From contig CAJJAV010000012.1 of the NCBI GenBank assembly GCA_905182125.1, forward strand, positions 1 through 64,000: a stretch of 64,000 nucleotides of DNA, given 5' to 3'. Shown piece after piece: positions 49,824 to 64,000 of the stretch (the stretch's first letter is position 1; every line of letters starts with the position of its first letter). Below the pieces are notes generated by a model that saw nothing but the letters and a program-made list of their open reading frames with translations, was not told the origin of the DNA and did no database searches. This DNA is from an uncultured Candidatus Poseidoniales archaeon (GTDB lineage Archaea; Thermoplasmatota; Poseidoniia; Poseidoniales; Poseidoniaceae). Position numbers and translations under genes: made by a program.

Positions 49824-52433
49824 TTACTCTTCGGCATCAGATTCGGCTGAATATTGGCGCAGGCTCTTGGTTTTGCTGACATCTCCCGCCACAACAATCG
49901 CCATACCGATGAGCATCGTCGACCAGCCGAGCCACACTGAATGTGAAGCAGGCAGGTCGTAGACAGTCACGCGCACTGTTTGAACCGAAGATTCACCGCC
50001 TTCAACCGCTTGACTCATCAGACCGGCAGCTTGACTCCCGTCGAAAATGAACACGATGTCACCGCTCCAACGCGTCAACGTATCAACTTCAGAGCGAGCA
50101 GTGGCAGTGGAGTCGAACCGAATCATACCGGGTTCAACCTCACCGATTCGGTCCCCAATTGCGCCATTTTCAAGTTCATAGACTGTGATTTGAACCCCAA
50201 CGTAACCATCGCCAACCTCAAGATCATCAGACTGGAAGCGAAGGCCATTGAATTCATAGCCATAATTACCGTCAATCACCACTTCATCACGAATCATAGT
50301 GATGCGATGACTTGCATCCCCTCGGTCGACAAGGACGGTGGTGTAGACGTGCCCGATCAACAGCAACACGAGCCCAAGGTGGACCACATGGGCGCCGAAA
50401 GGAATCCTACGCCACAGAGGCTGTTTTGATTTGCGGCTCCGCTGACTCTGGACTTCTCGAATCAAAGGAAGGACGATGATGAACAGCATTGGCAACATCA
50501 ACCAAGCCAGCGTCCCACGCACAATGAGGGAGGACATGCTGGTATCTGCATCCATGCCAAAAGCGCCTGGCTGCCATATAGCGAGAACAAAAGAAACGAC
50601 GAGGGTGGCAACAACCAGCCATGCGTTTCGTACAGAATCGCCTTTGCGTCCGGTGTAGATCACCATGGCAGTAGCAAATGCAAGGATGAACGGTGCGCCA
50701 TAGACTTCATGAGCGTCAAAATTCACCGCATCAATGCTGGCTAAAAGCAGGACAAGGGTCAACACAAGGTACATGCTCACCAGAACAACGGATGCCCAAA
50801 GAGCAATCTGCATCTGGTGTTTTCTTTCAAACAATGAAAATGATTTTGATTTCGCTTCGGTTTCTGGAGCGAACAGCCACGGGGCCACGAACAGAAGCAT
50901 GGTGACGCCTGCCGTGAGCACGGTCACCAACTCAGCCCATGCACCCGAAAGGCTCAGCATCACACCGGCAGCAGCCCAAGGCCAAGCCTTGGTGGCATCG
51001 GGAGCATAGAAGAGGGGCGTGAAGAACAACAGCGCCAGCGCTCCGAAGAACACATTTTCTGACAACAATGTGATGGCGACAAAGAACAGCAGGAGACTGA
51101 GCAGGGTCACGACAGATTGTGAGGAGACCGACTGAGCTGATTTTCGAATCATCGACTGATAACTCCAGCCACCTTCCCCCTCGGTTGGCGTTCGTTCCCG
51201 AGTGAAAACATCCAACGTGAGAGGAAGCAAAAGCAACAACGGGAAAGCCGCACTCGGAACGAATGCATAGACATCAGACCCTGGAAGAATTGAGGACCCA
51301 TCCCCAAGGCTACCGAGCATGGCGATGACAGCACCGATCAAAGGGAGGGCAAACAGCCAAGCTCCTTTCATGGAAGGGTCCGTTGAACTTCGTGCTCGTT
51401 GATGCTGGACCCACAGACCAACAAAGAGCAGCAAGAGAATCATGTACGACATCACTTCAACACCGGCAAAGGTATCGTTTTTCAGCAGAACCATGCGCGA
51501 GAAGGCATCGGTTGGTGCGGTCCCTTCGTCTGATGCGACAAAGGTGTGGACGGATGAGGCCCAAACGCCACCAGCACGTGTGACAAGGGTGGCAAATAAC
51601 GCCAATCCGCCAGCAGCAAGCCCGCCTCCAATCCATGCGCTATCGCTTGTCTTCCCAGGTCGAGTGCGGAGGTGAGCAAGAAGGACAAGCGCAAGCCATG
51701 GCAAGAACGAACCTGTTTCGACAGGGTCCCAAGCCCAGTAGCCGCCCCAGTCGAGGATGAGGTAAGCCCACAGCCCACCAAGGCCAATTCCGAGGGTAGC
51801 GACAAATAAACCGGGTCGAACGGTTGTCAGCATTCGATCTTTGATCCCTTTCGCATCTGTGAACATTGAAGAAAAGGCGATAGCGCTGGCGTGCAAACAA
51901 AAAGAATAGGCGAGGAAAATCAGGGGTGGATGAATGACCATGAGATCGGTTTGAAGCAATTCATTCAGACCGCGACCCATGAAGTAGGGCGAAGCGGCCT
52001 TGAATGGATCAAGGGTCTGAGCGTTGAGGAGCACTAAGAGGCTGAAGCCGTGAATCAATCGGAGGCGAAGGGCGTGGGTCACTTCCGATTCATTGGCCAT
52101 GGGCCGATGCCACAACCAGGCCAAGACCGTCATCCAAGCCACCCATAGCAGCAAGGGGCCTTCCCGGGCGGCCCAAGTGGCTGCAAACCGATACTTTAGC
52201 GGGAGAGCAGCGCCTCCGTAAGCAACGACGTGCTGGATGCTGATGTCATTGACCAAAAACCGACTGGCGAGGGCTATGAATGGAACAAGCAGCAAACCAT
52301 GCAACAACAACGATGTGATTTTCGAACGTTCGTGGATGAGTGGGCGAAAAACCAGCACAGCGGCCGCAATGATGGCCAGCCACAATGTCACCCCCCACAT
52401 GCATGAGGACCAAAGGGCATCCTTCAAGGACAT
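49824..52433 (-). CDS. CcmF-type cytochrome c heme lyase / CcsA-family protein
   Basis: 869 residues with about fifteen membrane helices. The heme-handling WWD motif WGGYWAWDPVE is in the first half (about residues 225-240), and HPPLIFLAY and REGPLLLW match CcmF/NrfE. The C-terminal 200 residues form an extracytoplasmic beta-rich domain followed by a last membrane helix. The protein presents heme for attachment to CXXCH sites of cytochromes c. No other ccm gene lies nearby. The start is taken as ATG 52433; the frame extends upstream to a TTG at 52487, but that would overlap the geranylgeranyl reductase gene. Confidence 0.85.
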   Translation of the reverse strand: MSLKDALWSSCMWGVTLWLAIIAAAVLVFRPLIHERSKITSLLLHGLLLVPFIALASRFLVNDISIQHVVAYGGAALPLKYRFAATWAAREGPLLLWVAWMTVLAWLWHRPMANESEVTHALRLRLIHGFSLLVLLNAQTLDPFKAASPYFMGRGLNELLQTDLMVIHPPLIFLAYSFCLHASAIAFSSMFTDAKGIKDRMLTTVRPGLFVATLGIGLGGLWAYLILDWGGYWAWDPVETGSFLPWLALVLLAHLRTRPGKTSDSAWIGGGLAAGGLALFATLVTRAGGVWASSVHTFVASDEGTAPTDAFSRMVLLKNDTFAGVEVMSYMILLLLFVGLWVQHQRARSSTDPSMKGAWLFALPLIGAVIAMLGSLGDGSSILPGSDVYAFVPSAAFPLLLLLPLTLDVFTRERTPTEGEGGWSYQSMIRKSAQSVSSQSVVTLLSLLLFFVAITLLSENVFFGALALLFFTPLFYAPDATKAWPWAAAGVMLSLSGAWAELVTVLTAGVTMLLFVAPWLFAPETEAKSKSFSLFERKHQMQIALWASVVLVSMYLVLTLVLLLASIDAVNFDAHEVYGAPFILAFATAMVIYTGRKGDSVRNAWLVVATLVVSFVLAIWQPGAFGMDADTSMSSLIVRGTLAWLMLPMLFIIVLPLIREVQSQRSRKSKQPLWRRIPFGAHVVHLGLVLLLIGHVYTTVLVDRGDASHRITMIRDEVVIDGNYGYEFNGLRFQSDDLEVGDGYVGVQITVYELENGAIGDRIGEVEPGMIRFDSTATARSEVDTLTRWSGDIVFIFDGSQAAGLMSQAVEGGESSVQTVRVTVYDLPASHSVWLGWSTMLIGMAIVVAGDVSKTKSLRQYSAESDAEE

Positions 52434-52452
52434 TCCTAAGCAAAAGGCCGAT

Positions 52453-53691
52453 TCACCAGCCGAAATGCTTGGCTCGAGAATAGCCAAAAGAAAGGAGAAC
52501 GGGTATCACTCGCTTGGTGAGGAGGATCGGTTTACGGACCAATATTTTCAGACCGATACCAATTTTTTGCAGAGGCGTCATGTTGCCCAATTCTTCAGGA
52601 AGGCATTTCGCCATCACTGACATTTCTTCATCAGTCAGGTCGTAGAGCGCCGTTTTTCCTTTGAGAATCTTGTGGTATGGAGGGAAGCGCTTCTTCCATG
52701 CCTTTTGGTAAACTAAGAGGCGTTTTTCAGACATGTCGCCTTCTGAGAGTGCCTTAGCGATTGTTTGAGCCGCTTCTCGACCGGACCAGAGGGCCAAGTG
52801 AGAGCCACCTTCGAACAGCGGCGAAGTAAATCCAGCCGCATCACCAACAAGGATCACGCCGTCTGCAACGGTGCGTGAGCGTGGTCCAGAAATCGGGATG
52901 GTCCCCCCGAAGGGTCGTACTTTGACACCATTCGCACGCCATGGGGGGTTGACGGTTGGTTTACCGTCCAAGTAGGTATCTTCGATGAAGGAATTGAGGT
53001 ACTTAATCGCACCTCGTTTATCGGTCGTGACCAAGCCGACGTTCGCTCTACCGCCCGCTTTGGGGATCATCCAGACATAGCCGTGGGGGGAGTATTTTGG
53101 CCACAGGTAGAAATCAAGGTAGCCGTCGTTTGGAACGTCCAACATTTCATACTGGAATCCTGCAATAACTTCGACTTCCGTGCCCATGTCCAGGAGTTTT
53201 GATGCTGCGCCAGAAACGCCTGACGCATCGATCACTGATTTGCACTCGATTGGGAAGCCATCTCCCTTCCCATCAATTTTCCAATATGAAAATTGATTTT
53301 CGCTATTCAAAACCCGCTCCATGGATGTCACTCGATGGTGAAGGAGAAGCGTCGCGCCTTCTTTTCCTGCTTCATCGCACAACCAACGTTCGAAAAGGTG
53401 CTTTTCCAACACATAGCCCTTTTCCGTTAACAGTTTCTCTGTACCGTCTGGGAAGATGACACGAATGCCCGTGACATCGAGGGCTTTGACATGATCTGGT
53501 ATCTCAAGGTCAAGGTTTTCCACAGCCAGATGGCTGAGGCATTCTCCGCAGTGGACTGGCGTCCCTACTTCTGGGTCTGCTTCGACGATTATTGTCTTCA
53601 AACCGGCCCTTGCGGCATGCAAGCCAGCGGAACCACCCCCCGGACCGGCACCGATGACCAAGACATCGCACTGTTGCGCTGCTTCGCCCAT
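52453..53691 (-). CDS. Geranylgeranyl reductase family FAD protein
   Basis: 412 residues. The FAD-binding start CDVLVIGAGPGGGSAGLHAARAG, VHCGECLSH (the family's Cys loop), VIDASGVSG, and the late motif VADGVILVGDAAGFTSPLFEGGSHLALWSGREAAQTI identify the family. In archaea these enzymes saturate the isoprenoid chains of membrane lipids or of quinones; which one applies here cannot be decided. ATG 53691 gives the MGEAAQQCDVLV opening. Just upstream of the ccmF-like gene (19-base gap), probably co-transcribed with it. Confidence 0.85.
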   Translation of the reverse strand: MGEAAQQCDVLVIGAGPGGGSAGLHAARAGLKTIIVEADPEVGTPVHCGECLSHLAVENLDLEIPDHVKALDVTGIRVIFPDGTEKLLTEKGYVLEKHLFERWLCDEAGKEGATLLLHHRVTSMERVLNSENQFSYWKIDGKGDGFPIECKSVIDASGVSGAASKLLDMGTEVEVIAGFQYEMLDVPNDGYLDFYLWPKYSPHGYVWMIPKAGGRANVGLVTTDKRGAIKYLNSFIEDTYLDGKPTVNPPWRANGVKVRPFGGTIPISGPRSRTVADGVILVGDAAGFTSPLFEGGSHLALWSGREAAQTIAKALSEGDMSEKRLLVYQKAWKKRFPPYHKILKGKTALYDLTDEEMSVMAKCLPEELGNMTPLQKIGIGLKILVRKPILLTKRVIPVLLSFGYSRAKHFGW

Positions 53692-53743
53692 GGTATGATT
53701 GAGTCGGGGGAAGCCCATGAAGCAAACGGTTGGTTCGCTTGCT

Positions 53744-54238
53744 TCATTCAGTGCGGCGAGCGGCAAACGCTGCTGCGAACGTTGTCACCATGATGCTGCT
53801 CATGAAGGACACCGAGGGGGTGTTTTCGACAGGGAGTTCTTCTTGGATTTCTTCGACAACCTCCACCGGGGCTGCTTCGACTGTGATGGTTCCGACCATA
53901 CCGACGCTTTCGTGAGGTTCACAAACGAAGGCGTGCGTGCCAGCAGTGCCAACTTCAAAGACAAACCTGTAGTCAACGTCCCGGGCAGGTTCACCCGACT
54001 CGAACAAGCCATCATCAGCGACGGCGTTGTGTGGCAGGGCTTGACCGCTCCACATGAAACGGACGGCTTGACCCTCAGTGAGGGTGACTTCAGAAGGACT
54101 GAATCTCAAACTCGAGCTGTCCACGGTGATGACAACATCCGATTCATTCGTAGCGGTCGCACCGGCAACTGAAGTTGAGATCAGCATCAGGCAAACCAGT
54201 ACCAAAAGTTCCCTAAGCATACCTCGTATCAGAACCAT
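53744..54238 (-). CDS. Membrane-anchored cupredoxin (blue copper-like protein)
   Basis: 164 residues. A signal peptide (LLVLVCLMLISTSVAGA) is followed by a plastocyanin-like domain with candidate copper ligands His70 (LPHNAV), Cys106, His109 (CEPHESVGM) and Met114, the standard H-C-H-M type-1 set. A Glu/Pro linker and a hydrophobic C-terminal helix (MSSIMVTTFAAAFAA) tether it to the membrane. It probably carries electrons on the outer face, for example to a terminal oxidase. Start could be ATG 54238 or 54220. It lies upstream of the geranylgeranyl reductase gene on the same strand and divergent from the UbiD gene. Confidence 0.8.
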   Translation of the reverse strand: MVLIRGMLRELLVLVCLMLISTSVAGATATNESDVVITVDSSSLRFSPSEVTLTEGQAVRFMWSGQALPHNAVADDGLFESGEPARDVDYRFVFEVGTAGTHAFVCEPHESVGMVGTITVEAAPVEVVEEIQEELPVENTPSVSFMSSIMVTTFAAAFAARRTE

Positions 54239-54310
54239 GTGCCTATCAATGCATGTATCGGGCCCCCGACCTGTTGGAAAAATATCCCAAGCAGAAATAC
54301 GACGGTTCAA

Positions 54311-56296
54311 ATGAAGGCCACCCTACGCACAAGTGTGGCGTGGCGTACTTCCAAGCGGTGGCTCGAGCATCTCGAGCAGCGAGGCGAGGTGCTGCGCATC
54401 GACCGCCCGGTTGATGTCAAATTCGAAGCGGGGGCCATCGCAGACTTGTTGGTCAAAAACGACGGGCCCGCTGTTGTCTTCGAACAACCTCGGTTGCCGG
54501 ACGGCACCATCAGCCCGATCCCGTTGGCAATGAACCTCTTCGGAGGTCAAGACAGGACAATGCGAGCGCTCGGTGCACGTCACCCAACAGAGGTTGGTGA
54601 CCGAATGGTTGCTATGATGAAGCCGGATATTGGACTCTTTATGCGAAAGCCATGGAAAGCATTGCCTCTGCTCCGAGATGCATTGGCCATGCCACCCAAG
54701 AAGAAACGAAAGGGGAACGCTCAGCGAATCCGATTGCCGAATGATTTGACCCGCCTCCCAATCCCAACGACCTGGCCCAAAGACGGTGGCCCCTTTGTCA
54801 CCCTCCCATTGGTGGTTACAAAGAATCCAAAGAATGGAGAACACAACCTTGGAATGTACCGTGCGCAGGTGTTCGGACCAAAGGAAATCGGTCTGCATTG
54901 GCAAATTCACAAGCACGGTGCAGAACACGCTGCGGCAGCCGAGGCCTCAGGAAAAGAGGTACGAATGCCAGTGGCCATTTGCATGGGAGGCCCACCAGAA
55001 CTCATCTTCTCAGCGATTTCCCCCCTACCAGACAACCTCACTGAATACCAATTTGCTGGTATTCTCGGCAGGAAATCGTTGCCCATCACCAAAGCACTGA
55101 CTCAGGACCTCATGGTCCCTGCAGAAGCTGACATCATCATCGAAGGCTATTGTATTCCAGGAAAAACTCGCCTCGAAGGCCCATTCGGAGATCATTTTGG
55201 ATTTTATTCACTGACCGGGCAGTACCCAGTCATGCACGTGACGGCGATCACATGCCGCAAAGATGCCATGCTCGCTGCGACCATCGTGGGACTTCCACCA
55301 ATGGAGGACGGGCACCTCGGTGAAGCGATTGGCCAACAATTCTCTCCGGTTCTCAATTTCCAGCACCGTGACGTGAAGAGCGTTCACCTCCCAATGGAGA
55401 CTGGATTCCACAACCTCGCGGTTGTGGCTTCGAAGCAGCGTTACCCACGTCAGGGCCGGAAGACCGCAATTGGCTTGCTCGGAGCGGGCCAAATGATGTT
55501 CCTCAAAACCATCATAGCAGTCGACGAAAAGCAAGACCCAAAGGATCTCGATGCACTGTTAGATGCCCTCAATGGAAAAGTGGACATAGCGACCGATGTC
55601 ATCGTTCTCGACGGAATGGTTGCTGATTCACTCGAGGCTGCAAGTCCGTATGAGAACGTCCACAGCAAACTGCTGATCGATGCCACCTCATTACCTGCGA
55701 GTGACCCCCGGTCTCCACAACCACCGCTTGAAGGATCTTACAGCCAACACACGCCTGCATGGCGTCAAGGAGGAATTGAGCCACCTTCCTTCGATCACCT
55801 CGAAGATGTTCTTTCGATGGAGGTGGTCGCAGACGCTCGGATGTTACGCAGTGGCATCATGGTTGTCACCGTAGACATCGATGGGACCCCCACACCAGAA
55901 GAAGGGGCAGAAACCGGGAACGATCGAGCAGAATCGAAACGGAAGAAGACAATCCTTCAATTGAAAAATTCAATTTGGCAATTGGACTCCGAATCCTCAC
56001 TCAGATGGCTTTTCATCACCAACAATGATCTCGATCTTCACTGTGAGAAGGCCCGCAGACGCTTACTCTGGCAGTTGACCTCCCGTTTCGACGTCGGACG
56101 TGGACTCTCGTTTGATAAGAAACGAGCGCGACTGTGTTGGGATGCGACAACGCCGATACCGTCAAAGAAACATGGTGTCCGCCGATGGCCCTCAATCACC
56201 CTCCACAGTCAGGAAACCTTGGAAAAGGTCGCTAAACATCCGGAACTTGCTAAGTACCAATGGCCAGCGCATCTTTCCTTTGGAGGCAAGAATTAA
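54311..56296 (+). CDS. UbiD-family prenylated-FMN decarboxylase
   Basis: 661 residues, longer than the about 490 of typical UbiD. Family features: HNLGMYRAQVFGPKEIGLHWQIHKHG (with the conserved Asn and Arg), PVAICMGGPPELIFSAISPLPDNL, EGPFGDHFGFYSLTGQYPVMHVTAITCRKDA and GHLGEAIGQQFSPVL. It needs prenylated FMN made by UbiX, which is not here. A UbiA-type prenyltransferase gene follows with a TAATG overlap, so the pair most likely works in quinone synthesis, probably menaquinone by the futalosine route. The archaeal mevalonate-pathway UbiD relative is shorter, so that alternative is less likely. ATG 54311 begins the conserved region. Confidence 0.8.
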   Translation: MKATLRTSVAWRTSKRWLEHLEQRGEVLRIDRPVDVKFEAGAIADLLVKNDGPAVVFEQPRLPDGTISPIPLAMNLFGGQDRTMRALGARHPTEVGDRMVAMMKPDIGLFMRKPWKALPLLRDALAMPPKKKRKGNAQRIRLPNDLTRLPIPTTWPKDGGPFVTLPLVVTKNPKNGEHNLGMYRAQVFGPKEIGLHWQIHKHGAEHAAAAEASGKEVRMPVAICMGGPPELIFSAISPLPDNLTEYQFAGILGRKSLPITKALTQDLMVPAEADIIIEGYCIPGKTRLEGPFGDHFGFYSLTGQYPVMHVTAITCRKDAMLAATIVGLPPMEDGHLGEAIGQQFSPVLNFQHRDVKSVHLPMETGFHNLAVVASKQRYPRQGRKTAIGLLGAGQMMFLKTIIAVDEKQDPKDLDALLDALNGKVDIATDVIVLDGMVADSLEAASPYENVHSKLLIDATSLPASDPRSPQPPLEGSYSQHTPAWRQGGIEPPSFDHLEDVLSMEVVADARMLRSGIMVVTVDIDGTPTPEEGAETGNDRAESKRKKTILQLKNSIWQLDSESSLRWLFITNNDLDLHCEKARRRLLWQLTSRFDVGRGLSFDKKRARLCWDATTPIPSKKHGVRRWPSITLHSQETLEKVAKHPELAKYQWPAHLSFGGKN

Positions 56297-57204
56297 TGAA
56301 CATCAAACAGGTTCTTTCTTTCATTAAAATAGAACACACCCTCTTCTCGTTGCCCTTTGTCCTGATTGGCTACATCCTCGCACACAACGAGTTCGTCGCA
56401 AACCAACAAAGCGGCATGTTTGACTGGATTGCTCCGGACCTTGCTTGGATCCTTATCGCAGCCGTTGGTGCGCGTGGACTCGCTATGGGCCTCAACCGCA
56501 TCATCGACAGAGAAGTTGACGCCGAGAACCCCCGGACAGCCGGGCGTCACCTTGCTTCGGGGTCGATGTCAATGAAGACCGCATGGACCCTTTGTGGAGT
56601 GTTCCTCTGTATGCTGCTGGTGAGCGCGGGCATGCTCAACGAAGTTGCATTGATGATGGCATGGCTCCCCGTTGTGGTTTTTGTCGTCTACCCCTACCTG
56701 AAGCGCTACACCTGGCTATGCCATTTCTGGCTCGGCCTTTGCTTGGGATTGGCTCCCGCCGGGGCTTGGATTGCGATCGCTGCAGACTCCCTTGGATGGA
56801 GTGCGATAACGGGCACAGGCTGGTATCCTGGCGTCTTTTTCATCGCTCTCGGGGTTGCCCTTTGGATTGCAGCCTTTGATTTAAACTACGCACGAATGGA
56901 TGCAGAAAGTGACAAGGAAAATGGCATCCATTCATTCCCCTCTCAGTTTGGCGATGAAGTCACGACCCGTACATCGATTCAACTCACACTAGCTTGGTTT
57001 GCATGCTTCGCCATAGCCAACCCAATGCCAGAGCCTTTCTTCTTGGTCGCAGCAGGCGCGATGGCCATCACCAACATCGTCGTCATCCTACGTCGCCTGC
57101 AGTGGAATGATTTCCAAACCACACTGTTTCGTACATCCATGTTGACTGGGTGGGTTCTGCTCGTGGCAGTGATGCTAATGGAACCGACTCAAGCCGTGGT
57201 ATGA
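56296..57204 (+). CDS. UbiA-family prenyltransferase, probable MqnP-like
   Basis: 302 residues with about eight membrane helices. Two Asp-rich motifs that bind prenyl diphosphate through magnesium are clear: NRIIDREVDAENPRTAGR (about residues 75-92) and FDLNYARMDAESDKENGIHSFP (about 202-223), the second being of the menaquinone/ubiquinone type rather than the digeranylgeranylglyceryl phosphate synthase type. It would prenylate an aromatic acid such as a 6-hydroxynaphthoate, which the UbiD partner then decarboxylates. Start and stop overlap the UbiD gene as TAATG. Confidence 0.82.
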   Translation: MNIKQVLSFIKIEHTLFSLPFVLIGYILAHNEFVANQQSGMFDWIAPDLAWILIAAVGARGLAMGLNRIIDREVDAENPRTAGRHLASGSMSMKTAWTLCGVFLCMLLVSAGMLNEVALMMAWLPVVVFVVYPYLKRYTWLCHFWLGLCLGLAPAGAWIAIAADSLGWSAITGTGWYPGVFFIALGVALWIAAFDLNYARMDAESDKENGIHSFPSQFGDEVTTRTSIQLTLAWFACFAIANPMPEPFFLVAAGAMAITNIVVILRRLQWNDFQTTLFRTSMLTGWVLLVAVMLMEPTQAVV

Positions 57205-57256
57205 TTCAACAGCCCACCCTGCAACGTTCAAGGGCCGAGCGCACTGAGGGCAATGC

Positions 57257-57637
57257 ATGAACCCAATGGTCACATCGCTGCTCGAATTCAATGAAGCCTT
57301 TGACATCCCCAAACTCGATCGTCCAGGGCTGGGCACGGAAGAAATGATTGAACTACGAATCAAATTGTTGCGTGAAGAAGTCGAAGAGTATGCAGAGGCC
57401 GCCCGTGCGGGTGACATGGTCGAAGTGCTTGATGCCCTTGCCGACATTGGCTACATCCTCGCTGGAACGATCATCAACCACGGCATGCAACACATCTACG
57501 ATGATGCATTTAACGAAGTTCACCGCTCAAACATGGCCAAAGTGGTTGATGGAAAGGTCATCCGCAGAGAAGATGGAAAGGTGCTCAAGCCTGAAGGCTG
57601 GCAGGCACCACAACTCGCTCAATTCCTCGATGAGTGA
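57257..57637 (+). CDS. MazG-like NTP pyrophosphohydrolase
   Basis: 126 residues of the all-alpha NTP pyrophosphatase superfamily (MazG / HisE type). The metal motif is REEVEEYAEAARAGDMVEVLDALADIGYI (about residues 38-66), with E-E-x-x-E and E-x-x-D. The C-terminal part EVHRSNMAKVVDGKVIRREDGKVLKPEGWQAP is typical of the group that hydrolyses non-canonical or phosphoribosyl NTPs. The last 32 bases including the stop codon are repeated exactly at 61829-61860. It follows the UbiA gene on the same strand by 52 bases. Confidence 0.85.
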   Translation: MNPMVTSLLEFNEAFDIPKLDRPGLGTEEMIELRIKLLREEVEEYAEAARAGDMVEVLDALADIGYILAGTIINHGMQHIYDDAFNEVHRSNMAKVVDGKVIRREDGKVLKPEGWQAPQLAQFLDE

Positions 57638-57639
57638 GC
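57608..57639 (+). repeat. Left copy of 32-bp direct repeat
   Basis: Covers the last nine codons, stop and two further bases of the NTP pyrophosphatase gene. An exact copy in the same orientation lies 4221 bases downstream at 61829-61860. The two bracket the LDLRA-like surface protein gene. Confidence 0.85.
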
Positions 57640-57731
57640 TCAGCCTCTCGGCAGTGCTCATTGCAACCGGAGCACATTGACCCTGCTTGCGCAAAGCCAA
57701 CGTGCATCGATGTATTCACCGTCAAACAGGT

Positions 57732-59033
57732 TCACTCGTTCTTGCGAACAAGGAGTGCTGCACCGAGCATCGAGATGATACCGAGTGCGGCTGTGAATCC
57801 AGGAAGCACAACTTCAGGGTTCTCATCAGCGTAGGCCATGCCCTTTGCCAATCGAACTGCGTTCCAGTCTTCCATGGTTTCAAGGTCTTCAGTGATCATG
57901 AACATGTCTCCATCGGTGAGCGTACCGCTTTCATCAGCGTCAAAGAATTCAATGCCAACGACGTTACCTGCTGCAAGATCAACAAATGACCAGCGTTCAA
58001 CATCGTCGCCACAGTCTTCGGCAGCGCTAAGTTCGCCTTCGTCACCATCAATTGTGTTGAAGGAGTCACACATCGAGAGAACAAGGTCCATACCGTCCGC
58101 ACTTGTTGCATCAGTGAGTGATCCTCCGTTCCATTCAATGAGGTCGCCGGCAGCGATGCCGACTGCTCCAACCATGTAATCACCGTAGCCGTGACCTTGG
58201 CCTGCGCCTTCGTCAGAACCGTCTTCACAATCATTGTAATCGTCGTTGACCCATGACATGTAGATGGAATCAGATCCATCAGCACAGTAGAAGGAGTTCA
58301 TGTCTTCTCCTTCCTGGAATTCAGGTTCATCTTCACCATCTGCACAATCCATGTTGTCATCGCTCACCATGTCAAGGGTGATCGTGGTCCCATCATTGCA
58401 ATCGAAGTTTGAAGTAAGGACTTCGTCAGATCCATCCTCACAGTCTGCGTATCCGTCAGAGACCGAAGAAAGAGAAATATATGTACTCTCATCGGCGCAC
58501 ATCCAGTAACTCACTTCTTCTTCATCGTAATCTGGTTCATCTTCTTCATCAGTGCAGTCATAAGCGCCGTCGTTGAGAAGAGCAAACTCGATGATTGTGC
58601 CATCGTTGCACTCAAAAGTTGCCTCTTGAATTGCCTCGCCATCAAAGCCAACAGCGAATGGAGGTGCGGCTTCTTCGAGGGTCATGTCCATCATGAGGTC
58701 GTGATCGCCGGTTCCGGCTGTGTACAGAGCGGGTTCATCATCCTCGATTTGAAACGAGGCGATCGACATGTCAGAATTAATGTTGATTGTCAAGATACTC
58801 TCATCATCCATGAACATAACAATCATGCTTCCATCATCTTGCATCCCACCCGACCAGATACCTTGTGGCATCGAGTCAGCGCAGGTCCAGAATCCAGCAG
58901 CATCATAGACACAATCAGTCCAGTCTGCTTCCCAGTCAATTTCATCAGAGGCATCCGAACAATCTGCTTCGTCGTCAAAGTAGGAGCTGAGCGGGATTGT
59001 TTCACCGTCAAAGCACGTGAATTCAGCTTGATT
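57732..59033 (-). CDS. C-terminal part of LDLRA-like repeat surface protein, PGF-CTERM tail (frame-shifted)
   Basis: About 433 residues with no start of its own. In the first 20 residues it takes over the repeat pattern from the other frame (QAEFTCFDGETIPLSSYFDDEADCSDASDE). It has five of the 18 two-cysteine C-x-D-G-[..]-D-C-x-D-G-S-D-E repeats, a 100-residue insert (about 35-140) and a Gly/Asp domain. It ends in LPGFTAALGIISMLGAALLVRKNE, a PGF-CTERM sorting signal (PGF, hydrophobic helix, basic end) that an archaeosortase would process. It most likely forms one protein with the open frame upstream. Confidence 0.65.
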   Translation of the reverse strand, partial: NQAEFTCFDGETIPLSSYFDDEADCSDASDEIDWEADWTDCVYDAAGFWTCADSMPQGIWSGGMQDDGSMIVMFMDDESILTININSDMSIASFQIEDDEPALYTAGTGDHDLMMDMTLEEAAPPFAVGFDGEAIQEATFECNDGTIIEFALLNDGAYDCTDEEDEPDYDEEEVSYWMCADESTYISLSSVSDGYADCEDGSDEVLTSNFDCNDGTTITLDMVSDDNMDCADGEDEPEFQEGEDMNSFYCADGSDSIYMSWVNDDYNDCEDGSDEGAGQGHGYGDYMVGAVGIAAGDLIEWNGGSLTDATSADGMDLVLSMCDSFNTIDGDEGELSAAEDCGDDVERWSFVDLAAGNVVGIEFFDADESGTLTDGDMFMITEDLETMEDWNAVRLAKGMAYADENPEVVLPGFTAALGIISMLGAALLVRKNE

Positions 59034-61725
59034 CCTGAGCGTCGGATTCATCGGAGTCATCCTGACAGAAGTAGTAACCAATGTTGACGTATTGAAGCGG
59101 AATTGTGTCGCTTCCATCTGCACATTCGTATGTGTAAGGTTCATCTTCTCCATCATCACAGTCGTTGTCGCCGTTGTTCACCATCGAGAATGCCACTTCA
59201 GTTCCGTCATCGCAGGTAAAGACACTGACTTCTTCGCCCATGTCATACTGTGCTTCGTCTTCACCGCCTTGACAATCGTTGTAGTCATCGTTGAGCCAGC
59301 TGATGTAGATATCTTCGCCATCGTCGCAGGTGAACAACGAAGTTTCCTCGTCATCCCCCATGGGTTCGTCTTCGCCATAATCGCAATCGTAATTTCCATC
59401 ATTCACGAGCGAGAGAGCAATTGTTCCGCCAGAATACCAGCAGTCAAAGGTCGATAGTTCCTGTTGGGTGATTGGATCGTATGATGGCTCATCATCGCCG
59501 TCTCGGCAGTCTTCTGCGCCGTCATTGACCAAGGACAGTGCGATGGTTTCTCCATCATCGCAATCAAAGGTGCTGTATTCGACGTATTCTTCGGATGGTT
59601 CGTCTTCACCATTTGCACAGTCTTCTGCGCCATCATTGGCGAGTGAGAAGTAGATTTGAGTCCCATCTTCACAATCAAACATCGAGGTTTCAGTCATGTC
59701 GTAGACAGGTTCGTCTGATCCGTCCTCACAGTCTTCGTTTTCGTTGTTCACTTCAGAGAGTTCAATCGTAAATTCACCATCAGCACAGTCAAAGGAAGAA
59801 GTCTCTTCTTGTTCCATCACTGGTTCGTCCCCACCGTAGTAGCAGTCATCATAGCCATCATTGACGTATGATAGCGGATACACTTCTCCTGAGTCAGGGC
59901 AAGTGAATTCTGAGGTTTCCTCTCCATCTTCATCGAAAGAAGGTTCATCTTCTCCTTCAGCGCAATCTGCTGCACCGTCGTTGACTTGGGAGAGGTAAAT
60001 ATAGCCTCCATCATTACATTCAAACTCAGTGGTTTCGATCATCTCACCATACACTGGCTCATCATCTGCATCCATGCAATCTTCGATGCCGTCGTTAACT
60101 TGTGAAAGGTAGATTTGACTGCCATCCATGCAGTCGAAGACCGAGAGCTCGGTGACATTGTACATTGGTTCATCCGATTCATCTTCGCAGTCTGCACCGC
60201 CGTCGTTTGCATACAAGAAGGTCACATAGGATCCATCAGCACACTGGAACAACTTGGTCTCGTCTGATCCATCTGCACAGTCTTCTTCTCCATCGTTCAC
60301 ATGGATGAGGCCGATTGTTTCACCGCTCAAGCATGTGTATGAGTACGTTTCTGAGAACTGAGGTTCATCGGAACCATCAGCGCAATCTTCGGTTCCATCA
60401 TTGACATCGTTGCTCATAATGGTTGTTCCATCGGCGCAGGTGTACTGATGTAGAGTTTCAGTGGCGCTGTCAGGGTTACCTTCGGTGAAGTAATCCGATT
60501 CGGAACAGACCCATGTGTTGTCAGAAAGTTCCTCGCAATGCAACAACTCAGGTGAACTCGCCATCGGGTTTTCCATGTACTGGTGGTGAATGAGGACGTG
60601 ATCGTCGACAACGGTGTCCTCGTCAAAGTCGCCTCCCTCTTCTACATAGGATTGGCTCAACTGAATCGTACCGTTGCTGTACAAGTAGGTGATGTTGTAC
60701 ATTTCCTCGCCCTCACTGTCAGCAACGGCTTGGTTGATGAGAAGGGTGTCTTGGGACGGAGCCGATATGATGAGCATCGACATGTAGGCATCAACGGCAC
60801 CATCGCCATCGATGTCCTCTGCAGATGTAGAAGAGAAGTGCCATGTCCCGTTTTCCATGAAGTTGTTCACCATGCCATAGACATCTTCTGCGTCCACGCA
60901 TGTTCCATCATCGAGGTTTGCTTCAGCGTTGAAATTGAAAGCTGCGGTGTTTATGCAGCCTGGGACGTCTTCGTGCTTGCTTGGATCACGTGGGTACATG
61001 TCCTGAGCGTTTGCAGTTCCATCGCCGTCCATGTCATCATCGAGGGCGTCACAGATTGTATCGTTGTCGAGATCTGCTGGAATGCTTGAAGCGTCGAGTG
61101 GATCCGAGCCACACTGTGTTTCTTCATCATCTGAGAAGGAGTCTCCGTCGTCATCAGTGGACACTGAATCACAGATACCATCGCCGTTTTCGTCGACCGG
61201 CATGAGGCTGGCAACGAGTGAGTTGCTGCCACATGCGGTTTCGTCAACATCGGACCAGCCGTCATTGTCGTCGTCAAGGTCCTCGGTGAGGGTGGATTCG
61301 CCAGTGATTGAGTCCGGCATGCCGTCACCATCTGTGTCGGTGGAAGCGGAGGCGTCACGTGGGAAAGCGTCAGCGTCGTTGAACACAGTGTCACCATCGA
61401 CGTCGAAATCGTATTGGTCGCAATCGAAGTCCCCGTCAAGGTCGTCAGGGAAGGAGGTGGCATTGAGCGGATCTGTACCGCACGTGGTTTCCATTGCATC
61501 GAGGAAACCGTCGTTGTCGTCGTCCATGTCCGCCACGAGCGGTGGTGTTGACGTCGATTCGCCGATGAGCTGGTCTGGCAAGCCATCGCCGTCAGTGTCG
61601 AAGAATGCTGCGTCGTCTTCAGGGAACATATCATCCGCATCGATTTTAGCAATATCTTCGTCCGCCATGCCGATGCATCCTGAAAGCAGCAGCATCAAAG
61701 TCAGTAAGAGTGTTTGAATCTTCAT
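59023..61725 (-). CDS. N-terminal part of surface lipoprotein with TSP3-like and 13 LDLRA-like repeats
   Basis: 900 residues before an out-of-frame stop. MKIQTLLLTLMLLLSGC is a lipoprotein signal (Cys17). Residues about 25-240 are Asp-rich TSP3-like calcium repeats (DTDGDGLPDQ, DDDNDGFLDA). A C-x-N-T-A-A-F-N-F-N-A-E-A-N-L-D-D-G-T-C module follows (about 255-276). From about residue 420, 13 repeats of 35-50 residues have the form C-x-D-G-x-x-I-x-L-S-x-V-N-D-G-x-x-D-C-x-D-G-x-D-E-P. They look like LDL-receptor class A modules reduced to one disulfide, with the calcium-binding D-G-S-D-E end kept. The frame breaks near 59034 and continues in the -strand ORF ending at 57732. Confidence 0.72.
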   Translation of the reverse strand: MKIQTLLLTLMLLLSGCIGMADEDIAKIDADDMFPEDDAAFFDTDGDGLPDQLIGESTSTPPLVADMDDDNDGFLDAMETTCGTDPLNATSFPDDLDGDFDCDQYDFDVDGDTVFNDADAFPRDASASTDTDGDGMPDSITGESTLTEDLDDDNDGWSDVDETACGSNSLVASLMPVDENGDGICDSVSTDDDGDSFSDDEETQCGSDPLDASSIPADLDNDTICDALDDDMDGDGTANAQDMYPRDPSKHEDVPGCINTAAFNFNAEANLDDGTCVDAEDVYGMVNNFMENGTWHFSSTSAEDIDGDGAVDAYMSMLIISAPSQDTLLINQAVADSEGEEMYNITYLYSNGTIQLSQSYVEEGGDFDEDTVVDDHVLIHHQYMENPMASSPELLHCEELSDNTWVCSESDYFTEGNPDSATETLHQYTCADGTTIMSNDVNDGTEDCADGSDEPQFSETYSYTCLSGETIGLIHVNDGEEDCADGSDETKLFQCADGSYVTFLYANDGGADCEDESDEPMYNVTELSVFDCMDGSQIYLSQVNDGIEDCMDADDEPVYGEMIETTEFECNDGGYIYLSQVNDGAADCAEGEDEPSFDEDGEETSEFTCPDSGEVYPLSYVNDGYDDCYYGGDEPVMEQEETSSFDCADGEFTIELSEVNNENEDCEDGSDEPVYDMTETSMFDCEDGTQIYFSLANDGAEDCANGEDEPSEEYVEYSTFDCDDGETIALSLVNDGAEDCRDGDDEPSYDPITQQELSTFDCWYSGGTIALSLVNDGNYDCDYGEDEPMGDDEETSLFTCDDGEDIYISWLNDDYNDCQGGEDEAQYDMGEEVSVFTCDDGTEVAFSMVNNGDNDCDDGEDEPYTYECADGSDTIPLQYVNIGYYFCQDDSDESDAQESS

Positions 61726-61743
61726 AATCTAGGGCCACGCCTA

Positions 61744-61858
61744 TGAGGTTATCAACCTTCACCCGTTCGATGGCAAAGTGATTCACCGAGAGGACGGTGA
61801 TCTGCTCAAGCCTGAAGGATGGCAACCGCCACAACTCGCTCAATTCCTCGATGAGTGA
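61744..61858 (+). pseudogene. Remnant 3' end of a second NTP pyrophosphatase gene
   Basis: In frame, the bases encode EVINLHPFDGKVIHRED and then GDLLKPEGWQPPQLAQFLDE and stop, paralogous to the C-terminal 38 residues of the MazG-like protein at 57257-57637. The rest of the gene is absent; upstream frame is open for a few codons without start or metal motif. Substitutions are spread through the first part, while the last 32 bases are identical to the left copy. It lies just downstream of the surface-protein gene start, on the opposite strand. Confidence 0.8.
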
Positions 61859-61860
61859 GC
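61829..61860 (+). repeat. Right copy of 32-bp direct repeat
   Basis: Identical to 57608-57639, same orientation, ending two bases after the stop codon of the gene remnant. Together they look like the flanks of an inserted or duplicated segment. Confidence 0.85.
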
Positions 61861-61928
61861 ACAGCCCACCGTCAAAGAGGCTGAGTCGCTTGGGTGGGAA
61901 TTATCACCGAGGGCCGCTACGCACAAGC

Positions 61929-62660
61929 ATGTCCAGACCTGTGGCGTTGATCACCGGAGGGGGGCGTGGCATTGGAGCCGCTACCGCCAAACGCCTTGCT
62001 GCTGATGGTTATGATGTCCTCCTCACCTACAACCTCTCGTCCAAGCCTGCAGAGATGGTTGTCGATGAAATCCGTGAACGAGGCGACGATGCACTCGCAG
62101 TCAAGGTTGATTGTTCAGACGGAGGCGAGGTCGGTTTGTTAGGAATTCATCCCTGGATGGCACGAGGGATCGATGCATTAGTGTTGAACCACGGCACCTA
62201 CGACCGGGTTTCAGCCACCACGATGTCGATGGACGATTTGCGACGTACAATGTCCGTCAATTTCGAGGGGGCTGTGGCCGTATGGAAAGCCGTTCAGCCT
62301 CACCTCACCAGCAATGCTCGAATGGTTGTGGTTGGATCACAATTAGGCACACGTGGGTCCCCACACGGAGCTGATTACGCCGCTTCGAAAGCAGCATTGG
62401 CTACGTGGGCCCGGTCCCTCGCACAGGCCGTTGGCCCAGAAGGGAAACGAGTCAATGTGCTCGCTCCAGGATTTGTTGACACCGACATCTTAGCAGGCGA
62501 TTCCAGTGAAAAACGAGCGCAACGGGAACAAGAGGTGCCACTCAAGCGAGTTGGTCGTCCCGAAGACATGGCAAACACAATCGCATTCTTAGTCGGTCCG
62601 GATTCAAACTACATCACCGGTGCTGTGCTGCATGTAAACGGTGGATTGTACTTACCCTAA
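61929..62660 (+). CDS. SDR-family short-chain dehydrogenase/reductase (FabG-like)
   Basis: 243 residues. TGGGRGIGAATAKRLAADGYDV is the NAD(P)-binding start (the G-x-x-x-G-x-G pattern at about residues 10-16), LVLNHGTYDR holds the NHG equivalent of NAG, the catalytic set is Ser in VVVGSQLGTRG plus YAASK (about residues 150-154), and APGFVDTDI and ITGAVLHVNGG close the fold. Similarity to 3-oxoacyl-ACP/CoA reductases suggests a role in lipid or polyhydroxy compound metabolism; the substrate is open. ATG 61929 begins the conserved region, while the longer frame runs back over the pseudogene. Confidence 0.85.
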   Translation: MSRPVALITGGGRGIGAATAKRLAADGYDVLLTYNLSSKPAEMVVDEIRERGDDALAVKVDCSDGGEVGLLGIHPWMARGIDALVLNHGTYDRVSATTMSMDDLRRTMSVNFEGAVAVWKAVQPHLTSNARMVVVGSQLGTRGSPHGADYAASKAALATWARSLAQAVGPEGKRVNVLAPGFVDTDILAGDSSEKRAQREQEVPLKRVGRPEDMANTIAFLVGPDSNYITGAVLHVNGGLYLP

Positions 62661-62719
62661 CATCGTTCAACAGCCTTGTATAGGGTCCAGTTAACCACAA
62701 CCCGTAGGAGGCATCACGC

Positions 62720-64000
62720 ATGGTCAAAGAATGGGATAATGATGGTGCTTTTGAAGATCTTGCCAACATCGAAATTGATGAATCAGATCTCGAGGAACGC
62801 GACCCCTTCGACATTTCACGAGCCCTCGAAGGAGCAGCTCTGGAGCACCTCAATCCCGAAGTAAAGCGTTTGGTGCTTCATTCAAAATTCGAACCTTCTG
62901 GCGACCAGCCTAAAGCAATTGAAAAATTAATTACTCAATTGGAAAATGGACAAGAACGCTGTGTGTTGCTGGGCGTCACTGGCAGTGGGAAAACCTACGC
63001 CATGGCACAGGTGATTCAGAAGTTGAATATCCCCACACTCATCATCAGCCATAACAAGACCTTAGCGAGGCAGTTATACCACGAAATGGCAGGGTACTTC
63101 CCAGAAAATGCTGTTGATTATTACGTCTCCCATTATGACTACTACCAGCCTGAGGCCTACTTGTCAAAGCGCGACATGTACATCGAAAAAGAACTCTCTG
63201 TTAACGAGCGCATCGAACAGGAGAGGTTCGCTACAATCGCATCGTTGGTCACCCGTCCTGATTGCGTGATTGTGTCCTCCGTCTCATGCATTTATGGGCT
63301 CAACCCGCCTGAAACATTCCTGGAATACCACGTTCGAGTTCACGTGGGTCAAGAAATCGAAACGAGTGATTTGCTACGCGAACTCATCACCCTCCAATAC
63401 AAGCGGACCACAACCGACCTGACCCGGGGTGATTGCCGTGTACGAGGCGAAGTGGTCGATGTGTGGATGCCAAGTCGCGATGATCCACTTCGTATCCAAT
63501 TTGACTTTAATGGCATTATCAAAGTATCAGTCTGCGACCCAGTCACATGGGAAGTGCTTGACGAACTTGATGAAGCTTGGATTCACCCTCGGCAATTCTA
63601 CATGACAAGTCCCGAGCGTCTTGAGGCAGCATTGGTCTCCATTGAGGATGAACTCGATGACAGGGTTGCCCATTTTGCCAGTGAAGGGCGAGAATTGGAG
63701 AGGCATCGTATCGAACAACGCACCCGATACGATCTGGAAATGATTCGTGAAATTGGACACTGCCAATCCATCGAGAATTATTCCCTCCACTTCGACGGTC
63801 GAAAGAGAGGACAACGACCCCATTGTTTGCTGGACTTCTTTGCTGCATGCGCCAAACAGTTTCACGGCGATCCGAGCAAGTTCCTCGTCATCATGGACGA
63901 ATCCCACGTGACGCTTCCTCAAGTCGGTGGCATGTATTATGGAGACCGATCAAGAAAGGAAAGCCTGATTGATTTCGGATTCAGATTGCCCACTGCAGCA
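62720..64000 (+). CDS. uvrB: Excinuclease ABC subunit B, 5' part
   Basis: 427 codons are visible; the gene runs off the right edge (full proteins have about 670-700). After about 50 non-conserved acidic residues it shows FEPSGDQPKAIEKLI, the Walker A motif GVTGSGKT (about residues 85-92), the beta-hairpin region VDYYVSHYDYYQPEAYL, TLARQLYHEM and the DES(H) box MDESHVT. UvrB verifies DNA damage with UvrA and recruits UvrC in nucleotide excision repair. A good ribosome site (GTAGGAGG) lies 8 bases before ATG 62720. The gene class came to archaea from bacteria. Confidence 0.95.
   Translation, partial: MVKEWDNDGAFEDLANIEIDESDLEERDPFDISRALEGAALEHLNPEVKRLVLHSKFEPSGDQPKAIEKLITQLENGQERCVLLGVTGSGKTYAMAQVIQKLNIPTLIISHNKTLARQLYHEMAGYFPENAVDYYVSHYDYYQPEAYLSKRDMYIEKELSVNERIEQERFATIASLVTRPDCVIVSSVSCIYGLNPPETFLEYHVRVHVGQEIETSDLLRELITLQYKRTTTDLTRGDCRVRGEVVDVWMPSRDDPLRIQFDFNGIIKVSVCDPVTWEVLDELDEAWIHPRQFYMTSPERLEAALVSIEDELDDRVAHFASEGRELERHRIEQRTRYDLEMIREIGHCQSIENYSLHFDGRKRGQRPHCLLDFFAACAKQFHGDPSKFLVIMDESHVTLPQVGGMYYGDRSRKESLIDFGFRLPTAA

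Follow-up and report, generated by a model that had tools for sequence, protein, structure and literature searches.

The interval between the genes for a mazG-like nucleotide pyrophosphatase (mazG) and an SDR-family oxidoreductase (SDR) in this uncultured Marine Group II archaeon appears, from comparison of its sequence with those of congeneric genomes, to behave as a flexible island in which accessory genes are gained, lost and exchanged by homologous recombination without an integrase. The odd second mazG 3' end that lies in the interval, hereafter tail 2, is probably the leftover of one such swap. The island belongs to an already known kind, of which this site is a new case. Archaea of Marine Group II abound in the surface ocean and, to our knowledge, have no cultured member, gene exchange among them being known from sequence alone. 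The locus represents a defined site at which surface-protein, transport and repair genes turn over, its recombination boundary being measurable within a core gene, and it would make testable in metagenomes whether surface-protein swapping tracks viral predation.

The locus and its second mazG end

The window, i.e. the whole stretch of 64,000 nucleotides that was analysed, covers positions 1-64000 of contig C12 (77.4 kb) in an assembly of 1.85 Mb and 31 contigs. The features that concern us are the following.

56260..57204, plus strand: UbiA-family prenyltransferase, the conserved left neighbour (Pfam PF01040, E=3.9e-40; syntenic in relatives)
57257..57637, plus strand: mazG-like NTP pyrophosphatase (PRA-PH fold), intact, the left core gene (Pfam PF01503, E=3.9e-12)
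57548..57645, plus strand: mazG 3' end, copy 1 (W1; direct repeat D7)
57732..61725, minus strand: surface-protein gene (Pfam on its two ORFs)
61763..61866, plus strand: tail 2 (W2), a truncated, diverged mazG 3' end private to this genome, with a stop codon at 61856-61858
61873..61928, plus strand: SDR leader (aggctgagtcgcttgggtgggaattatcaccgag...), common to haplotype contig C11
61929..62660, plus strand: SDR-family oxidoreductase, the conserved right neighbour (Pfam PF13561, E=2e-48; syntenic in relatives)
62720..64000, plus strand: uvrB, running on to 65164 of C12 (from ORFs and sequence; orthologues in relatives)

mazG and the surface gene are convergent and 94 bp apart, and the surface gene alone lies between the two mazG ends, as the initial annotation had it, although it appears in the window as two overlapping ORFs (900 and 475 amino acids) owing to a 1-nt insertion at about 59024-59027. 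The annotation was also right that the interval lacks an integrase: none was recognised in 57638-61765 from ORFs and Pfam, and there is no tRNA in 50000-64000. According to Pfam searches of the two ORFs, the surface protein has a lipobox-like N-terminus, contains TSP3 repeats and numerous repeats of LDL-receptor class A, and ends in PGF-CTERM; that an archaeal protein (57732-61725) combines such a start and end with many LDL-receptor class A repeats is an observation in its own right. In relatives the gene is a single ORF of about 1345 amino acids or more, and alignment with four of them places AGCTGAA on the minus strand of C12 against AGCGAA or AGTGAA at the frameshift site, near which the complete G080 sequence has Ns. 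Relatives with this gene are listed under Candidatus Poseidoniaceae / Poseidoniales and include the complete Marine Group II chromosome CM001443.1.

The exact recurrence of the 32-nt mazG end (57608-57639) at 61829-61860, reported in the initial annotation, is confirmed, and the block forms part of a longer direct repeat of 98 nt (57548-57645 and 61769-61866) that is gapless and 83% identical; no comparable repeat was detected elsewhere in contig C12. Mismatches are clustered, since 17 of them placed at random in 98 nt would leave a mismatch-free run of at least 32 nt with P ~0.01. Likewise, the sequence before the second copy does encode a diverged mazG C-terminus: tail 2 translates as DGKVIHREDGDLLKPEGWQPPQLAQFLDE, ending in a stop codon, and corresponds to residues 98-126 of the protein encoded by mazG. 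Beyond the gene itself, tail 2 alone matches mazG in this assembly, and no second mazG was found in any other genome searched. Its first 20 codons stand at ordinary between-species divergence from copy 1 and its last 32 nt are identical. Differences fall 4/1/11 at codon positions 1/2/3 (11 of 16 third in the coding part; P=0.004 for the excess), a pattern that indicates descent of tail 2 from a mazG whose divergence was under selection on the protein, rather than the simple decay of a recent copy. A recent self-copy of the genome's own mazG was considered and is ruled out by this third-position bias and the clustering of differences. Where tail 2 departs from conserved residues (H, D, L), the change would be due to subsequent decay or to a variant not yet sampled. 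A displaced allele of mazG itself is a better fit than the mostly replaced paralogue that the annotation had offered as one explanation.

The sequences nearest to tail 2 are those of G081 (86% over 92 nt) and then the intact mazG of C12 (83%), a family-wide search yielding no closer source. The peptide (E/D)DGDLLKPEGW is absent from 84,980 species genomes, and the pattern (E)DGDLLKPEGW has no match in genome_contigs or viral_contigs, own-genome records possibly being left out of both. A separate match of 22 nt at 82% links the 3' flank of the surface gene (57717-57738) to the sequence directly after tail 2 (61867-61888); it may be chance, and was not relied on as a hint of a deletion-type empty allele as source, half of it being the SDR leader common to C11.

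Contents of the mazG-SDR site across the genus

Among 63 congeneric genomes, mazG was detected in 45, from which the loci were fetched and neighbours placed by tblastn. The order mazG ... SDR-uvrB is conserved genus-wide wherever contigs reach. The initial annotation had predicted empty sites and other cassettes in relatives, and both were found: SDR follows mazG after 42-46 bp in 14 genomes (of about 45 with mazG), three others carry deletion scars (G070, with 62 C-terminal codons left; G076, with about 6 codons; G074, with a channel remnant), and further genomes carry unrelated transport, repair or channel genes. The surface gene lies between mazG and SDR in the same orientation as here in G065 and G080; in G075, G081 and G064 the contigs are broken and the pieces agree with the same surface gene at the site in that orientation, G064 showing the SDR side. 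The other cargo is listed below; in all, at least six kinds occur, ranging from single genes up to 15 kb.

MGMT, ion channel and photolyase-related protein: G005, G014, G031, G063, G083
Photolyase-related protein alone: G086
ArsP-like permease, in either orientation: G004, G023
Metallo-beta-lactamase-fold protein: G028, G030, G073
K+-type channel: G001, G016, G077, G084
Methyladenine glycosylase: G007 (SDR not reached by the contig)
15-kb island with the surface gene in opposite orientation and a phosphodiesterase: G003 (L034, L122; G003:C5)

The G003 island also holds genes resembling a metal ABC importer and a NikR-like regulator, assigned by eye. No integrase or mobile-element gene was recognised in the window interval or in ten insert proteins searched with Pfam, other insert ORFs being checked as translations. 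Orthologues of the surface gene also occur at other chromosomal places (L119, G083:C10, 7085-11173; L152, 2234-6220; L121, G020:C4, 4575-9354), and hence the gene has also been relocated.

As one explanation of the repeat, the initial annotation had suggested the footprint of an element that brought the surface gene, inserting itself at the mazG 3' end and supplying a second copy of the latter. Like known integrative elements in gene 3' ends, the locus does have a gene-end direct repeat either side of foreign-looking DNA; the repeat, with its exact 32-nt core, encloses one gene, and the second copy adjoins the downstream flank. Unlike such elements, it has no tRNA and no recognised integrase, and the repeat is missing where relatives have the same gene at the same site. 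In G064, G065, G080 and G081, all filled in the same orientation, the start of the surface gene is 122-127 bp from that of SDR with no mazG sequence between, against 203 bp here, the extra length being tail 2. Relatives with other cargo lack a flanking repeat as well, and at 17 other sites only short, chance-level matches to the mazG end were seen. Integration by a site-specific element is, consequently, exceedingly improbable. Since four relatives have the same gene, orientation and site and no right-hand mazG end, tail 2 is private to this genome; by parsimony, it would have arisen in this lineage, with the surface gene occupying the site across the clade. Conclusions about the site lean little on tail 2, because the empty, scarred and alternative sites come from many independent assemblies, one of them complete.

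Recombination signal in mazG and the surface gene

Synonymous codon identity between C12 and four relatives (G065, G080, G075 and G081) has a mean of 0.38-0.43 and a maximum of 0.62-0.74 in windows of the flanking genes. Along mazG it begins at 0.40-0.57 (5' end) and climbs to 0.88-0.96 (3' end), and within the surface gene it is mostly 0.5-0.96, in pair-specific patches, falling to ~0.35 at the N-terminus against G065. Fisher tests on the identity contrast give P values of 3e-5 to 3e-3. The gradient also exists between G070 and G065 or G080. From this gradient it follows that the surface gene and the mazG 3' end were shared among these species more recently than the neighbouring genes were, and we infer recombination as its cause, with mazG (57257..57637) as the putative left recombination zone. 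To this extent the suggestion that surface proteins are exchanged as cassettes at the site stands, in the form of interspecies sharing more recent than that of the neighbours and not of repeat-flanked integration.

An alternative is that synonymous sites at the mazG 3' end are conserved because mazG and the surface gene, which converge, have a terminator in common or constrain each other by antisense; with 94 bp between the two genes, their transcript ends could overlap. This is very unlikely: high identity extends across the surface coding region in patches specific to each pair, G019 also shows 0.81 and has no surface gene, and other genomes lack the 3' rise. Profiles outside the clade are flat along mazG (0.54/0.53/0.47), so that the rise is not a general constraint on the mazG 3' end.

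The gradient is instead the pattern that would be expected of homologous recombination in a flanking core gene, by analogy with replacement islands (PMC4033161) and integrase-less hotspots (PMC5635113). Replacement flexible genomic islands are swapped through homologous recombination in the genes that flank them (Lopez-Perez et al. 2014, PMC4033161), the S-layer island of Haloquadratum walsbyi being an archaeal example. They resemble this locus in their fixed conserved flanks, alternative contents, surface-exposed product, boundary-gene recombination signature and lack of an integrase. They differ in that the genomes compared here are different species of one genus, many sites are empty, and the boundary consists of excess identity (a shared cassette) and not of a substitution peak. 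The hotspots surveyed in bacteria in 2017 (PMC5635113) similarly gain and lose accessory genes within one pair of core genes, with no mobile element recognisable, whereas the host here is archaeal and uncultured and the inserts range from one gene to 15 kb.

On the right-hand (SDR) flank no identity gradient comparable to that of mazG was seen. Against the closest genome, G070, mazG has no clear boundary peak of synonymous change, identity being fairly even and the signal weak. Against the same genome (L098), synonymous identity drops to 0.30 at SDR codons 140-175, compared with 0.57-0.94 elsewhere in the gene, and this dip is a possible separate recombination tract.

Origin of tail 2

Tail 2 is best read as a mazG tip displaced by homology-facilitated illegitimate recombination. 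Surface-gene alleles would travel from one species to another along with the mazG 3' part, the left homology arm of the exchange. In one import at this locus, the left side would have been anchored in mazG and the right side would have ended illegitimately: the imported segment, made up of the 3' part of a mazG, the surface gene and the promoter of the latter, would have been fused to the resident mazG around codon 97-98, and the resident 3' tip, shifted downstream, would have stayed attached to SDR. There is a homologous anchor at the left end, in that relatives have the mazG 3' part in common together with the surface gene; the right joint, abrupt after ..CACCCG (~61762), may be of the non-homologous, microhomology type. 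The position of tail 2 fits a displaced resident remnant, seen in one metagenome-assembled genome (MAG) that is strain-mixed; no sequenced genome among the 84,980 species genomes searched, own-genome records possibly being left out, has the resident allele that would have yielded it. Both the anchored, illegitimate event and the identity of tail 2 with the resident allele are inferred, and we rate the full account, exchange of the site by homologous recombination with one import that displaced the resident tip, at about an even chance.

A comparable process, with displaced 3' genes or tips, has been proposed for Vibrio T6SS immunity arrays and Rhs orphan tips (PMC5361080). As in our proposal, those cases have a one-sided anchor, a non-homologous joint on the other side and the old 3' end downstream of the new module; unlike them, the relic here is the truncated end of a housekeeping gene in a single MAG and not a retained functional immunity gene.

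The assembly itself offers another explanation. Contig C11 of the same MAG (L136, G000:C11) starts in a second surface allele, 72% identical and without tail 2, and between C11 1-8500 and C12 61541-70000 stretches of identity give way repeatedly to others diverged by about 30%, with uvrB frameshifted, a sign of strain-mixed assembly or polishing. The C11 haplotype and the 1-nt frameshift in the C12 surface gene together indicate that the assembly mixes strains at this locus. Reads from a strain in which SDR follows mazG directly might, therefore, have been joined in C12 to reads from a surface-gene strain, such that tail 2 stands beside the surface promoter in no cell. Besides the C11 haplotype and its frameshift-ridden uvrB, this is favoured by the surface-gene frameshift, which looks like two merged alleles (AGC/AGT to AGCT), with Ns nearby in the complete G080, and by the frequency of chimerism among marine MAGs (PMC11247762). 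We consider it a serious rival, though the less likely one: C12 is otherwise clean (greedy ORFs cover 96.6%, with a mean of 355 amino acids) and, at the joint, the surface promoter and mazG have no word in common, the usual joining point of an assembler.

A ~100-nt mazG fragment from another strain could also have entered an already filled site by microhomology, coming to lie between the promoters of the surface gene and SDR and replacing ~20 nt. Relatives and the C11 haplotype are indeed filled and without tail 2, and C12 aligns to them as far as ..CACCCG in the surface promoter and then from the SDR leader onwards, so that only a short segment differs. Yet the foreign fragment would then have to contain the end of its gene by chance and settle next to SDR, the very place in which displacement would leave the resident tip, and ~100 nt is near the upper size limit of short-patch insertions; a literature search on short-patch double illegitimate recombination returned nothing relevant. 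Such an insertion is distinctly unlikely.

Displacement of the resident tip remains the preferred reading. Its extension to Marine Group II as a whole, namely that a large LDL-receptor-A/TSP3 surface protein is exchanged between species at one fixed place in the chromosome by anchoring in the mazG 3' end, and that right-hand crossovers without homology leave orphan mazG tips that mark individual swaps, is advanced more tentatively, at rather less than even odds.
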